DNA of 64,000 nt from Aestuariispira ectoiniformans. Lineage in GTDB: Bacteria > Pseudomonadota > Alphaproteobacteria > UBA8366 > Aestuariispiraceae. The notes beneath the pieces are model-generated. The model did not search any database. It was not told the DNA's origin and worked only from the letters and a program-made list of their open reading frames with translations. The translations under genes were made by a program, and so were the position numbers. The stretch lies in NCBI RefSeq assembly GCF_025136295.1, contig NZ_CP062788.1, positions 3,303,588 to 3,367,587 of the forward strand. Reading direction: 5' to 3'. Below are positions 14,309 to 19,274 of this stretch, in pieces. The first letter of the stretch is position 1. Each line of letters begins with the position of its first letter.

Positions 14309-14337
14309 AGCCGGATGAATATTCATCCGGCTTTTTT
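14309..14337 (+). terminator. 24-base palindrome, copy 2 (plus-strand terminator)
   Basis: The same half-site AGCCGGATGAAT with its exact reverse complement, 174 bases from copy 1. Here it is followed by six T on the plus strand. Each copy therefore carries its T tract on the outward-facing strand, giving a paired bidirectional stop between the two convergent genes. Confidence 0.75.
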
Positions 14338-15733
14338 ATGGCCGCTCCCGCCCCCTGCTTTCATAAATTGCCGGGGACAGAGTTATTAAAGCTGAGGCCG
14401 CCAGAGTTATCCCCGATATAGCCATTAAAAACAGAAAGGCATGGTCCAAACCGCCCCGATCAACGCCTTCCGCCATCAGCAACACAACGATAATTGCCCC
14501 CACAGCCCCGCCAAGGCGCTGCAGGATATTCACCAATGTCGCCGCATCGCCCATTTCCTTCTGCGGAACAAACGCATAGGCCATCGTCATTGCTGGCATC
14601 TGCGCCAATGCCAGACCTGCACCACGCAGAAACAGCAATCCCCACGACAACGACCGGGACGGCGGCGTCTCGCCCATGAAGGGGATTATCGTCACGATCA
14701 AACAAAGAGCACCAGCGACGATAACGCGCCCTCCCCCATAGCGGTCCGTCAGCAATCCGCAGACAGGCAAAGCCAGCGCCGCGCCCAGCCCCATCATGAA
14801 CAACATCATTCCGGCAGCCATAACATCGTCCGAAACCACAAATTGGAAATAGAGGGGGAGCAAAAGCAAGCCTGCGAACATATTCGTTCCCGTCAGCCCC
14901 GCAACCGCAACAGCCGCACGAAACGTCCGCCCTTGCAGCAGCGCAAGATTCAACAGCGGCTCTCCAATTCGTGCTGTCCGCCATCCGAAGGCTGCAATCA
15001 ACGATACACCTGATGCCATCGCCAACACCACTGCCGGTCCGGCCATCGCAGCCTCCGTCGCCCCGATTAGAACAAGCGGCAACCCGGTTCCGATCATGAG
15101 CAGCCCGCACCAATCCAGCGACGCGGACCTGTCACCCTGCCCCGGCGGAATATGTCGAAGCGCCAGAACCAGGGCGATACAGCCAACGGGGATATTCATG
15201 GCAAATATCCAGCGCCACGACAGGGTGCCGAGAATGGTGCCACCGATCAAAGGTCCGATGGCCGGTCCCAAAGCCACGGCGAACCCCAGGGAGCCCATAA
15301 TTCGGCCTAGCTGGCGTGGCTCTGCGGCCTTTCCGATTACTGCCTGCCCCGCAGGCACAAGGACACCACCAGCAAGTCCCTGAAGCAATCGCGCAGCAAT
15401 CAATAGCCAAAGATTCGGGGCAAGAGCACAAAGGGCCGACGTCAGAACAAATCCCGCCAAGGCGGCAAGCCACACACGACCACATCCAAAACGGCGCACC
15501 AACCACCCTACGGCAGGCAGCGAGAAAGCCAGTGCCAGCAGATATCCCGTTATGACCCACTGGACCGACGACAATGATGTTCCAAAATCCTGCCGCAGGC
15601 TTTCTACAGCGAGATTGGCAACTGTGGAATCCAACATCGCCATGAAGGCACCGGCACCGCTGATAGCCGCAACCTTCCATAACCGGGCTGGAATAGGCGG
15701 TAATGCAGCCCGTTTTTCATCTGTCTGAGACAC
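14336..15733 (-). CDS. MFS drug-efflux transporter (DHA2/EmrB-QacA type)
   Basis: 465 residues with about 14 predicted membrane helices, as expected for DHA2 proton-driven exporters. Helix 1 carries AFMAMLDSTVANLAVESL, the LDxTVxNVAL motif of the family. RLLQGLAGGVLVPAG and LGPAIGPLIGG are the family motifs B and C. GTG start at 15733 with GAGGTG upstream. It diverges from a TetR gene across an 86-base gap containing a clean operator, so TetR-controlled export of a toxic compound is the simplest model. The substrate is unknown. Confidence 0.9.
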   Translation of the reverse strand: MSQTDEKRAALPPIPARLWKVAAISGAGAFMAMLDSTVANLAVESLRQDFGTSLSSVQWVITGYLLALAFSLPAVGWLVRRFGCGRVWLAALAGFVLTSALCALAPNLWLLIAARLLQGLAGGVLVPAGQAVIGKAAEPRQLGRIMGSLGFAVALGPAIGPLIGGTILGTLSWRWIFAMNIPVGCIALVLALRHIPPGQGDRSASLDWCGLLMIGTGLPLVLIGATEAAMAGPAVVLAMASGVSLIAAFGWRTARIGEPLLNLALLQGRTFRAAVAVAGLTGTNMFAGLLLLPLYFQFVVSDDVMAAGMMLFMMGLGAALALPVCGLLTDRYGGGRVIVAGALCLIVTIIPFMGETPPSRSLSWGLLFLRGAGLALAQMPAMTMAYAFVPQKEMGDAATLVNILQRLGGAVGAIIVVLLMAEGVDRGGLDHAFLFLMAISGITLAASALITLSPAIYESRGRERP

Positions 15734-15772
15734 CGGGGCACCTCATTGATTTATTTGAATAACATCTCTTAT

Positions 15773-15790
15773 ATGATACAATCGTATCAT
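15773..15790. promoter_or_regulatory. TetR operator between MFS and tetR
   Basis: Perfect inverted repeat ATGATAC-AATC-GTATCAT in the middle of the divergent promoter region. Its position suits simultaneous repression of both genes. Confidence 0.7.
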
Positions 15791-15819
15791 AAAAAACATC
15801 ACAGTCACAAGAGGCGCAG

Positions 15820-16443
15820 ATGCCCAAGATCGTCGACCATGACAAACGCCGCGAACAAATAATAGAAGGCCTGATACGGTTGATCGCCAGCCAGGGCATG
15901 CACCAAGCCAGCCTGCGTGCAGTGGCACAGGAGGCCGGCGTCTCTTTGCGGTCGGTACAGTATTATTTCGATGACAAGGCAGCATTGATGCAGGCGGCCC
16001 TGCACCATCTGGAAAAGGCCAGCCATGACCGCTGGGACGAACGATTGGCCGCACTCGCAACGCCATATTGCTTGCGGGACTATCTTCTCACCTTCATACG
16101 GGAAGCCCTTCCCAGCGACCCGGAAAGCCGCATCTTTCATCTGGTCTGGACATCTTTTGTGATCCTTGCGCAGACCGATACGACAATCGCAAAGCAGCCT
16201 TTTCTCGATGGGCCGAAACGCCTCATGCAGCAGATAGAACAGCGATTAACCCAGGGGCGCGAGAATGAAGAGATCAGCACCAGTATAAATCCGGCGTTTG
16301 AGGCAAAACGCCTTGTAGCCCTTTGCCACGGCCTGGGGACCAGTCTTCTAGTCGGCCTTTTTGATGCGGATGGAGCCGTCGCCCTGGCGACCCGTCATAT
16401 CGACGAATTGTTTCAGAGACAAAGCACCGAAAAAGGCAGCTAG
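15820..16443 (+). CDS. TetR-family repressor, probable regulator of the divergent MFS exporter
   Basis: 207 residues. The N-terminal TetR DNA-binding domain is clear (DKRREQIIEGLIRLIASQG, then LRAVAQEAGVSLRSVQYYFDDKAALM). The C-terminal ligand-binding part is helical and divergent. An AGAGG site precedes ATG 15820. Divergent placement with an exporter and a shared palindrome supports a classical efflux switch. Its 3' end overlaps the convergent membrane-protein gene by 4 bases. Confidence 0.9.
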   Translation: MPKIVDHDKRREQIIEGLIRLIASQGMHQASLRAVAQEAGVSLRSVQYYFDDKAALMQAALHHLEKASHDRWDERLAALATPYCLRDYLLTFIREALPSDPESRIFHLVWTSFVILAQTDTTIAKQPFLDGPKRLMQQIEQRLTQGRENEEISTSINPAFEAKRLVALCHGLGTSLLVGLFDADGAVALATRHIDELFQRQSTEKGS

Positions 16444-17063
16444 CCCGCCTTCTCCTGCTCTTCAGCCGGCATGTTTTCGGCCTTTTCCGCCTGACCTCCC
16501 GACTTGGCCTGTGCCTGTTTTTCCTTCAGGGCATCGCCACGGCGGACCGCCTCTGCGGCGGTGACCAGTTCAGTAGGAATTTCCGGCGCGTCTTCGCGCA
16601 CTTCCTTGCCCCACAATTTGACCAGATTCTGCTGGCGCTCAATTACAGTTTTCAGCTTGGCCTCGGAACTGACCTTCATATAGGAGGCGACCACCGGCGG
16701 AATGGAAAAATACAATCCCCACCCTGCCCCGGCGGCAGCGAACATAATGAACCAGTTCAGCGGATCGCCCAGCAGGGACATCGCCTTGGTCCAGGAGGAA
16801 TCGCCGCTGATCCACATCTCCAGGGCCACCATGAAACAGCCCGCGATATTCATATAACCGACAGTCAGGGTTGCATATTTCTGGGGCGCGCGGTCAACCA
16901 CGCGGGCGACAAGAGTCGGCATCATACCGGCGACGAAGATCACAACGGTTTCAGGGAACAGGATGACCAAAGCAATCGTAATCACAAGTGCAATCGTCAG
17001 ACGCGGCCAGACCGACGGCTTGCCCTTTGCGGTAGTCTTCTTTTTTTTGCCAGCTTTTGCCAT
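16440..17063 (-). CDS. Hypothetical membrane protein paired with the pseudokinase
   Basis: 207 residues, family not recognised. A lysine-rich N-terminus (KAGKKKKTTAKGK) is followed by three or four hydrophobic segments (about 22-42, 43-55, 68-88 and 103-125). A 75-residue charged, probably helical cytoplasmic tail ends in E/K/Q-rich sequence. It lies 21 bases downstream of the pseudokinase gene and is almost certainly co-transcribed with it, so a membrane complex of the two is a reasonable guess. Its stop overlaps the convergent tetR stop by 4 bases. Confidence 0.75.
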   Translation of the reverse strand: MAKAGKKKKTTAKGKPSVWPRLTIALVITIALVILFPETVVIFVAGMMPTLVARVVDRAPQKYATLTVGYMNIAGCFMVALEMWISGDSSWTKAMSLLGDPLNWFIMFAAAGAGWGLYFSIPPVVASYMKVSSEAKLKTVIERQQNLVKLWGKEVREDAPEIPTELVTAAEAVRRGDALKEKQAQAKSGGQAEKAENMPAEEQEKAG

Positions 17064-17084
17064 CGCTACTCGGACGCCTGTCTC

Positions 17085-19139
17085 TTAAATCAACTTGATC
17101 ATGGCCACGATCGTGACCGCAACCATTCCAATAATCCCGGCCAGGCCGGACGCAATCTGCCCTCCCCGCAACAAGGCCAGTTTCTTGCGGTCGCGAATAT
17201 CGCGATAGACCTTTGCCTGTATCCCCACCAGACGGGCAAAATCCAGGCAGGCGCGCTGGAACCCGTTTTCATCGGCCTGCAGTTCATCCCGGTTGTCGAT
17301 AATCGCCACCAGTTCCGCAAGACGACCGCTTTTGGTCGCCTTTTCAATACGATCCAGAATCTTTTTGCGGGTCTCGCGGGAATGGAACCGTTCAATAGCG
17401 GGCTTCAGCATGCTGGCCGCCGCCTGACACAGATTGGGGAAGCGCTGACGGGGCGCCAGGGAGTCATGCAGTTTTGCCAGAATGCTCAACTGTGCCAAAG
17501 CAGAGATATAGGGTGGATCGTTCAGGTCCATATCCCTGAATTCATCACTCATAGGGCGCTTGGAATGGATACTGATATAGGCCGCGATCTCCTTGTCCAC
17601 CAGAACATCCACATGCCCGCCCGACCGTTCTGCATAGCGCTCCAACGCATCCAGGAGATAGTCGATATTGGGAACATAGTCCCGATCAAACAGCGGCGAA
17701 CGGCAAGGCAACCAGTTGTTCAGGTCGTAGATCATCCGTTCCAGCCCCGCACCATAGCGGTTCTGGTTCATCAGATGCTTGCCCTTTTCCATCTTTGCCA
17801 GCAGGCGCAGGTCATCGGGGTCATTCTTGACCTGCATTTCCAGCCAATAGGGAATCAGCCCCATGGACAGGATGCGGCGGAAGGTCTGGCGCATAAAGTT
17901 ATCGCGGTTATTCAATGCCAGAACCCGGCAAACCCCCTCTACGGTTCCCGCATAGTCACGCAACTGGATCGGTCGTTCAGGGTCCAGGGAGATAAGCAGA
18001 CGACCAACGAAACGGTCTGCATTCTCCTGCCCTCCTTCATAACTGACGCCCTTGGCAACATTGACCGCCTCAACGCGATCCTCGTCTGCAAGACTGCGGC
18101 GCAGCCAGGTATCCAGCGTTCCTTCCTGCACCAGCGGCAAAATCTGATCCCAGTGCTGACCGAAAGTATGGGCTACTTCCCGCGCCATAAACAGATCACG
18201 GCCCGCAAATTTCAGGGCGCGGGACGCCTTTGGCGGCATGGCCTGCTGTTTCGGGGACAGACGGCGCCCGCCCAACCACATGCCCAGATCATCGACGGAC
18301 CATCGTTCCCGGGGGTCGTCGTTCAGCAAACCTCGCAGTGGCTCCATCATGGACAAGGAGACACGCGTCCCCTGCACCAGGGCTGAATAGCTGCCATAGG
18401 TCAGCTTGGCATGCAGCAGTTCTTCTTCGGTTTTGAAAGTCGATCCAGGGTCCCTGCCGGTCAGCAGGGCCAACATGGTAGCGCCCAGCGCATAAAGGTC
18501 ATCGGACGCCGATCCATGCCCCCGACCGCCGGGTGTACATTGGATCGCCTCGATGGTTGAACAGCTAGGAAGCTGTTGCATGCCAAAAGGCGTTGTATAG
18601 CATTCCCCAATCAGGATATCGGCCCGTTCGTCACTGTCATAAAACAGGTTATCCGGGCGAATCCGGCCGTGGTAGACGCCGATCGTGTGAAGTTCCCGCA
18701 GGATGGCGACCGCTGGCTCGACCAGCATCCGCGTGACCTGTTCCTCCAACAGCGCTTCATGCTTTTCCGCCGGGTTGACCAGGACCCGCTTGCCCATTGG
18801 GCATTCACAGACAATGATCGGAAAACGCTGTCCGGTCCCCGGCCACTCCAGCACATCCCAGTCCAATACGCGGACAAAGTTACGATGGTCCACACGATGC
18901 AGGGCGCTGATCGTATCCAAACGGGGCGGCAATTTCGGGTCGCAGAGATAGGCCATAAGCTTGCGTGTCGAATCGCGCTTATGACGCACATGGAAGGCTC
19001 TGGCAGGCGAAGAATCGTAATCAGGCAAAGGCTGCGACGTGTAGATGTCATATCGCCCTTTCAGGGAGATGACACCACCACCGCCTCCATTTTCCACCTG
19101 ATTGGGCGCCTCTTCGCCCCCCGCGATCTTAACCGCCAT
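17085..19139 (-). CDS. Predicted membrane-anchored serine/threonine pseudokinase
   Basis: 684 residues. Residues 28-290 look like a bacterial protein-kinase domain: a catalytic-loop equivalent GVYHGRIRPDNLF (155-166), the helix-F motif ASDDLYALG (211-219) and a C-lobe ending DDPRERWSVDDLGMWL. The catalytic Asp of HRD is replaced (H157-G158-R159), the DFG aspartate is missing (ADILIGE, 173-179) and no clear beta-3 AxK lysine is visible. A long helical region with no recognised domain follows (about 300-650). A final hydrophobic helix (about 662-684) anchors the C-terminus. Kinase fold is fairly sure; loss of activity is inferred from the missing residues. It leads a two-gene operon with the membrane protein downstream. 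Confidence 0.78.
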   Translation of the reverse strand: MAVKIAGGEEAPNQVENGGGGGVISLKGRYDIYTSQPLPDYDSSPARAFHVRHKRDSTRKLMAYLCDPKLPPRLDTISALHRVDHRNFVRVLDWDVLEWPGTGQRFPIIVCECPMGKRVLVNPAEKHEALLEEQVTRMLVEPAVAILRELHTIGVYHGRIRPDNLFYDSDERADILIGECYTTPFGMQQLPSCSTIEAIQCTPGGRGHGSASDDLYALGATMLALLTGRDPGSTFKTEEELLHAKLTYGSYSALVQGTRVSLSMMEPLRGLLNDDPRERWSVDDLGMWLGGRRLSPKQQAMPPKASRALKFAGRDLFMAREVAHTFGQHWDQILPLVQEGTLDTWLRRSLADEDRVEAVNVAKGVSYEGGQENADRFVGRLLISLDPERPIQLRDYAGTVEGVCRVLALNNRDNFMRQTFRRILSMGLIPYWLEMQVKNDPDDLRLLAKMEKGKHLMNQNRYGAGLERMIYDLNNWLPCRSPLFDRDYVPNIDYLLDALERYAERSGGHVDVLVDKEIAAYISIHSKRPMSDEFRDMDLNDPPYISALAQLSILAKLHDSLAPRQRFPNLCQAAASMLKPAIERFHSRETRKKILDRIEKATKSGRLAELVAIIDNRDELQADENGFQRACLDFARLVGIQAKVYRDIRDRKKLALLRGGQIASGLAGIIGMVAVTIVAMIKLI

Positions 19140-19241: not shown

Positions 19242-19274
19242 AAAAAGCCCGCTGTCATCACAACAGCGGGCTTT
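19242..19274 (-). terminator. Terminator of the hisZ-purA operon
   Basis: AAAGCCCGCTGT and ACAGCGGGCTTT form a perfect 12-base stem with a 7-base loop, followed by T residues on the minus strand. It separates purA from the pseudokinase operon. Confidence 0.92.

Follow-up and report, generated by a model that had tools for sequence, protein, structure and literature searches.

In this study, we describe a pair of neighbouring genes in Alphaproteobacteria, one encoding a membrane-anchored protein with a degenerate kinase domain and the other a small membrane protein, and the partnership of the two genes, as judged from comparative genomics, is well supported. The pair was examined in a stretch of 64,000 nucleotides from Aestuariispira ectoiniformans (NZ_CP062788.1, 3,303,588 to 3,367,587), hereafter the window, in whose coordinates all positions are given. 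Both open reading frames (ORFs) lie where a first-pass annotation of the sequence had placed them, on the minus strand, with 684 and 207 residues, the membrane ORF following 21 bases downstream of the pseudokinase ORF (Table 1).

Table 1. Features of the gene pair in the window and the basis of each assignment
Feature	Position	Strand	Basis
Pseudokinase protein with C-terminal membrane anchor, 684 aa	17085..19139	-	ORF; homologues in 131/385 class genomes
Kinase-fold domain, residues 20-292	18264..19082	-	AlphaFold model, VIA fold match, residue counts
Kinase-domain landmarks: HGR 157-159, N164, G178-E179-C180, D214, R279-W280, short alphaC 74-80
All-helical domain, residues 300-650	17190..18242	-	Model and conservation
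C-terminal helix 651-683 with membrane segment	17091..17189	-	Model and homologue hydropathy
Partner membrane protein, 207 aa	16440..17063	-	ORF; family adjoins 139/148 full-length kinase ORFs; model
Partner helix, residues 126-151, after last membrane segment; candidate docking helix	16611..16688	-	Conservation, weak couplings
Hairpin resembling an intrinsic terminator, in the gap from purA to the pseudokinase gene	19242..19274	-	Read from sequence; also in scan list

Distribution and genomic setting of the gene pair

A profile of the kinase protein, at a cut-off of E 1e-10, was positive in 131 of the 385 alphaproteobacterial genomes sampled, and a profile of the membrane protein, at a cut-off of E 0.01, in 137 of them. 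The first-pass annotation had proposed that the pseudokinase is anchored in the membrane and has a membrane protein as its dedicated partner, and had counted homologues lacking an accompanying membrane gene as evidence against this; the membrane gene was present in all 131 kinase-positive genomes, and both this co-occurrence and the adjacency reported below speak for the proposal. The association is shared by descent, so that its Fisher p overstates independence. Six genomes matched the membrane profile only, four of them marginally (E > 0.003) and two clearly (G070 and G084), the last two being incomplete assemblies (completeness 84% and 75%). Of 148 full-length kinase ORFs, which are not all independent since named and unnamed loci partly overlap, 139 have the membrane gene next to them, and the gap between the two genes, as measured from mechanical ORF starts, has a median of 7.5 bases in 138 pairs and is no longer than 30 in 120. 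The nine non-adjacent cases comprise one locus where the following gene resembles a diverged partner by eye (L159), two whose partner lies elsewhere in the genome on a different contig (L202 in G255 and L215 in G339), four partnerless second kinase copies whose genomes carry a pair at another locus (L150, L152, L154 and L156), and two with no recognised partner adjoining within the locus stretch, which alone was searched (L087 and L094). Each of the four partnerless copies adjoins a small conserved gene that looks glyoxalase-family-like by eye. Variation in copy number was also observed, with four membrane-gene matches against one pseudokinase match per genome in G052 and G184, and a tandem kinase-membrane-kinase-membrane arrangement at one locus (L160 in G170).

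The usual gene order in relatives, counted over 27 loci and the window, some of them incomplete at the ends and some without hisZ, is hisZ, purA, the pseudokinase gene and the membrane gene, followed by convergent rpoH and a gene that we take to be rluD; hisZ was named from Pfam and the Azospirillum annotation, and purA and rpoH from the Azospirillum annotation. In the window, the pseudokinase gene starts 157 bases past purA, with the terminator-like hairpin lying in between, the terminator scan being weak on its own, with 5 sites found where shuffled sequences led one to expect 3.0. Between the pair and rpoH, Pfam identifies in the window a TetR regulator and an MFS transporter (14336-16443), and the end of the TetR ORF was observed to overlap the end of the membrane gene by four bases. 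Among 136 loci, a count in which named and unnamed loci partly overlap and some stretches are cut, purA and/or rpoH occurred within the stretch in 107 (67 with both, 23 with purA only and 17 with rpoH only) and neither in 29, and the two genes remain together at loci outside the purA-rpoH site. The gene is on large secondary replicons of Azospirillum in NZ_CP029356.1, NZ_CP029830.1, NC_016585.1, NC_013855.1 and NZ_CP054621.1; it adjoins hisZ, purA and rpoH in A. thermophilum, and a sensor histidine kinase instead of these in A. ramasamyi. At five loci (L112, L113, L114, L191 and L199), perhaps representing few independent events, genes resembling those of Tad pili (TadE/TadG) by eye follow the membrane gene on the same strand.

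Kinase fold and catalytic residues

Pfam Pkinase matched the window protein with E 7.2e-07 and 29.3 bits, slightly below its cut-off of 31.7, and matched all 19 family members tested at E up to 0.1, and the family profile matched solved kinases with E 2.9e-13. The comparison with kinase folds that the first-pass annotation had suggested bore out its reading, as an AlphaFold model built from 48 sequences (mean pLDDT 90.8) displays a bilobal kinase fold over residues 20-291, with a short alphaC helix. Among solved structures, these residues matched WNK3 best (VIA Z 24.1, rmsd 2.7, 254 aligned), followed by WNK1 (Z 23.8) and ASK1 (Z 22.9); since WNK3 is ahead of ASK1 by only 1.2 Z, the ranking among kinases has little meaning. 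On the evidence of this predicted structure, the protein has a protein kinase-like fold. A defence-system identity was considered and rejected, the PADLOC matches to MkoA, mad6 and PD-T4-6 all falling inside the kinase domain of the window protein (residues 77-286), and the NCBIfam models LanL and MAD6 scored far under their cut-offs against it.

Residues were counted over 151 distinct full-length homologues. The window protein carries HGR at 157-159 and SDDLYALG at 212-219, as first noticed, and the degeneracy proved to be family-wide: just 2 of the 151 have D in the HRD Asp column (R159 in the window), and K occurs in 2 at column 65, that of the VAIK Lys (L65 in the window, followed by C66, a Cys in 95). 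The HRD His is kept as H157 in 148 and is followed by R in 110 and by G in 33, the catalytic-loop region reading mostly HR[A/N/S/G] and the VAIK region A-L-V-C. The loop Asn N164 is present in 145, the residue before it (163) is acidic in only 76, and further conserved positions are the helix-F Asp D214 (150), R279 (150), W280 (148), G178 (147) and an E or D at column 179 (135). No conserved Lys was found in the glycine-loop columns listed for these homologues. It is clear from these alignments that the catalytic Asp and the ATP-binding Lys have been lost, and their disappearance while H157, D214, R279 and W280 are kept indicates that catalysis has probably been lost and that the fold is under strong selection. 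Both position 66 and position 180 are Cys in 76 of the 151 homologues.

The position of the DFG motif depends on the alignment. In the HMMER rows, the DFG Asp of MAPKAPK3 and that of twitchin fall on E179, and the Gly of the titin motif on G178; against bacterial kinases, four of five hhalign runs set G178 on the DFG Gly, with the hydrophobic residue 176 at the place of the Asp, and the fifth gave no sensible alignment of the DFG segment. The balance of alignments favours a loss of the DFG Asp in the family, and the earlier remark that there is no DFG aspartate is correct for the window sequence, with the conserved acid E/D179 close by and lying on the Asp in some alignments. A joint loss of N164 and of this acid gave a Fisher p of 0.016 in sequences that are few and related, and we place no weight on it. 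An ATP site kept intact through alternative residues appears unlikely.

Helical domain, membrane anchor and partner protein

The roughly 350 unrecognised helical residues and the C-terminal membrane helix described in the first-pass annotation are borne out by the model and the family searches. Apart from a few short strands, residues 300-650 or so are modelled as all helical, and neither Pfam nor NCBIfam gave a family over this region of the window protein; among 19 family members, non-kinase family matches each occurred in a single member, at E 0.01 or worse. The domain harbours conserved motifs at 463-481 (GxGxERxxYxxN...PCxS) and 515-520 (DRHIAA). In a sample of 398 genomes of the phylum, which includes members of the class itself, the profile of the domain found 16, all belonging to this class, and of the 15 besides the window's genome, 10 were kinase-positive in the 385-genome search and the remaining five lay outside that search. 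An armadillo identity of the domain (E from 8.6e-06) was rejected, as one stretch of 24-27 residues was matched to every repeat and no single armadillo repeat was significant, and the likeness to E. coli YegI over the non-kinase part reached an hhalign probability of about 5%, no more than chance. In the model, the membrane segment lies within a long helix spanning 651-683, and hydropathy detected a C-terminal segment in 7 of 9 homologues.

The partner protein was modelled with a pLDDT of 89.1 and shows a conserved Q144..L147..W151-G152, with W151 in 131 and G152 in 128 of 133 sequences. From its charges and the model we infer that it has four hydrophobic helices and that its two termini lie in the cytoplasm, a topology to be read beside a hydropathy scan of the partners in which each sequence shows just 1 to 3 segments. 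Family matches of the partner were weak and confined to one or two members (best E 0.0044 in Pfam and 0.0011 in NCBIfam), no match to the PDB was obtained by sequence, and fold searches returned nothing convincing (best Foldseek E 0.9, best VIA Z 5.0), which does not imply a new fold.

Coupling between the two proteins was estimated as mutual information with average-product correction over 113 paired sequences (effective number 94). The best inter-protein coupling stood at 6.0 sd, compared with an average of 4.6 for the best values of six permutations. The pairs kinase 633-partner 143 and 640-136 are within the ten highest and fit an antiparallel register, in which the kinase helix preceding the anchor would lie on the partner helix past the last membrane segment, with shuffled-partner P of 0.044 for the top 10 and 0.064 for the top 20. 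This helix pair has the most cells above 3 sd (8 of 775), the rate of high cells is greater in several helix pairs, and their number is greater in other blocks of the matrix, the block in question ranking in the top 0.7 to 1.5%. The couplings are therefore no more than suggestive of packing between the two helices.

Proposed role, rival explanations and significance

We consider it fairly probable that the two genes form a module whose products make up a scaffold complex of the inner membrane, built on the pseudokinase and probably without phosphorylating activity, which holds or gates a client. The larger protein would be a pseudokinase held by its C-terminal membrane helix, in which the kinase fold is kept and phosphate transfer is most likely absent, since the catalytic Asp and the ATP-binding Lys are gone. 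The kinase fold, the conserved activation-segment motif and the helical domain would together form a docking platform; the last, probably cytoplasmic, helix of the partner may pack on the helix just before the pseudokinase anchor, and the complex would hold or gate its client where the inner membrane faces the cytoplasm. Against this scaffold stand the persistence in most members of N164 and of an acid at 179, which goes beyond the needs of a bare scaffold, the weakness of the coupling signal between the two proteins, and the eight kinase ORFs without a recognised adjoining partner. The conservation of Asn164, and perhaps that of the nearby acid E/D179, invites the speculation that a nucleotide or Mg2+ might still bind and switch the pseudokinase. 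A bolder version, which we put forward tentatively as the less probable one, is that of an undescribed core inner-membrane machine, in which the pseudokinase, often the only Hanks-type fold of the cell, would act as a nucleotide-sensing switch coupled to the membrane partner, itself lacking a recognised fold match; the pair is kept in complete genomes down to about 1.4 Mb.

Another nucleotide chemistry on the kinase fold, like the AMPylation of SelO or the glutamylation of SidJ, is improbable in our estimation. A group of polar residues surrounding the former active site is conserved together with N164 (R73 in 143, R161 in 128, Q189 in 139, E194 in 141 and R206 in 138 of the 151 homologues), which would suit such a reaction, but the VAIK Lys lost here is kept in SelO and SidJ, according to a table in a 2025 review (PMC12599244). 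The variable residue 163, acidic in about half of the homologues, likewise argues against it. We give still less credit to an atypical but active protein kinase, in which a Lys from elsewhere, in the manner of WNK, and the acid at 179 would restore ATP and metal binding. WNK kinases do without the usual Lys, WNK3 and WNK1 are the best structural matches, and N164, the acid at 179 and the HMMER rows on MAPKAPK3 and twitchin are in its favour; however, WNK kinases are active with their HRD Asp, which is almost absent from this family, the glycine-loop columns listed offer no conserved Lys, hhalign and the titin row leave a hydrophobic residue at the place of the DFG Asp, and the short alphaC and the narrow lead of WNK3 over ASK1 weaken the comparison further.

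Pseudokinases commonly serve as allosteric partners of active kinases, and the allosteric role suggested in the first-pass annotation could be so understood, the pseudokinase steering a cognate Hanks kinase. We searched with the Pfam Pkinase cut-off in 41 kinase-positive genomes, chosen for completeness and not at random. Another match over the cut-off was found in 17, but none outside the pseudokinase genes in 24 (11 of 18 and 13 of 23), including the window's complete genome; six of these 24 had a sub-cut-off match (G048, G073, G075, G145, G147 and G303), and 18 of the 41 had no other match even at E 0.001. Some of the pseudokinases escape the Pkinase search, and strongly diverged kinases could go undetected in the same way. 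Since 24 of the 41 lack another match over the cut-off, steering a Hanks kinase is disfavoured as a shared role, and we regard it as very improbable. Equally slight is the chance that the pair serves its neighbours in purine synthesis or heat shock, which the frequent nearness of purA and rpoH would suggest, but which the hairpin after purA in the window, the convergent rpoH and the survival of the pair outside this site speak against.

With reference to known pseudokinases, the same review (PMC12599244) lists five bacterial families that are wholly pseudokinase and two with many pseudokinases, and our comparison relies on the motifs printed there, those of GLW, DLHK and ActPs3 among them. The published classification defines ActPs1-3, CP1 and DYD by sequence constraints specific to each family. 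By sequence, the present family does not match any published family with comparable printed motifs. The closest functional analogy is EssB/YukC of type VII secretion, likewise a membrane-anchored bacterial pseudokinase with a non-catalytic role, though a Firmicutes protein with motifs LDMR, Ytfvlapd and TRG (PMC12599244), whereas the protein described here has a 350-residue helical domain and its own partner, and no T7SS gene was noticed in passing. The MviN/ActPs3 pseudokinase domain is likewise membrane-tethered, but is mainly actinobacterial with motifs VALT, Lsidhpsr and Y-- (PMC12599244), and the loop His and Asn are kept here. In the GLW family, GLW replaces HRD and LLLL/W replaces the Lys, a feature absent here, where His and mostly Arg or Gly open the loop and A-L-V-C takes the place of the Lys. 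DLHK pseudokinases are also proteobacterial, with the loop Asn kept and a loop Arg present, yet as there described they retain the HRD Asp and have no membrane regions (PMC12599244), unlike the present family. Among the open-access papers covered, we found none recognisable as dealing with this pseudokinase family, in keeping with its earlier proposal as a candidate for an undescribed system.

In two annotated Azospirillum records, the label serine/threonine protein kinase is given to the pseudokinase, the gene after it being called hypothetical, and through this annotation phosphosignalling may be credited to genomes that have no other Pfam Hanks-type kinase. A pseudokinase with one partner, found across the class and in small genomes, offers a tractable case of a kinase fold without catalysis. 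The pair points to an unstudied core membrane function in many alphaproteobacteria.
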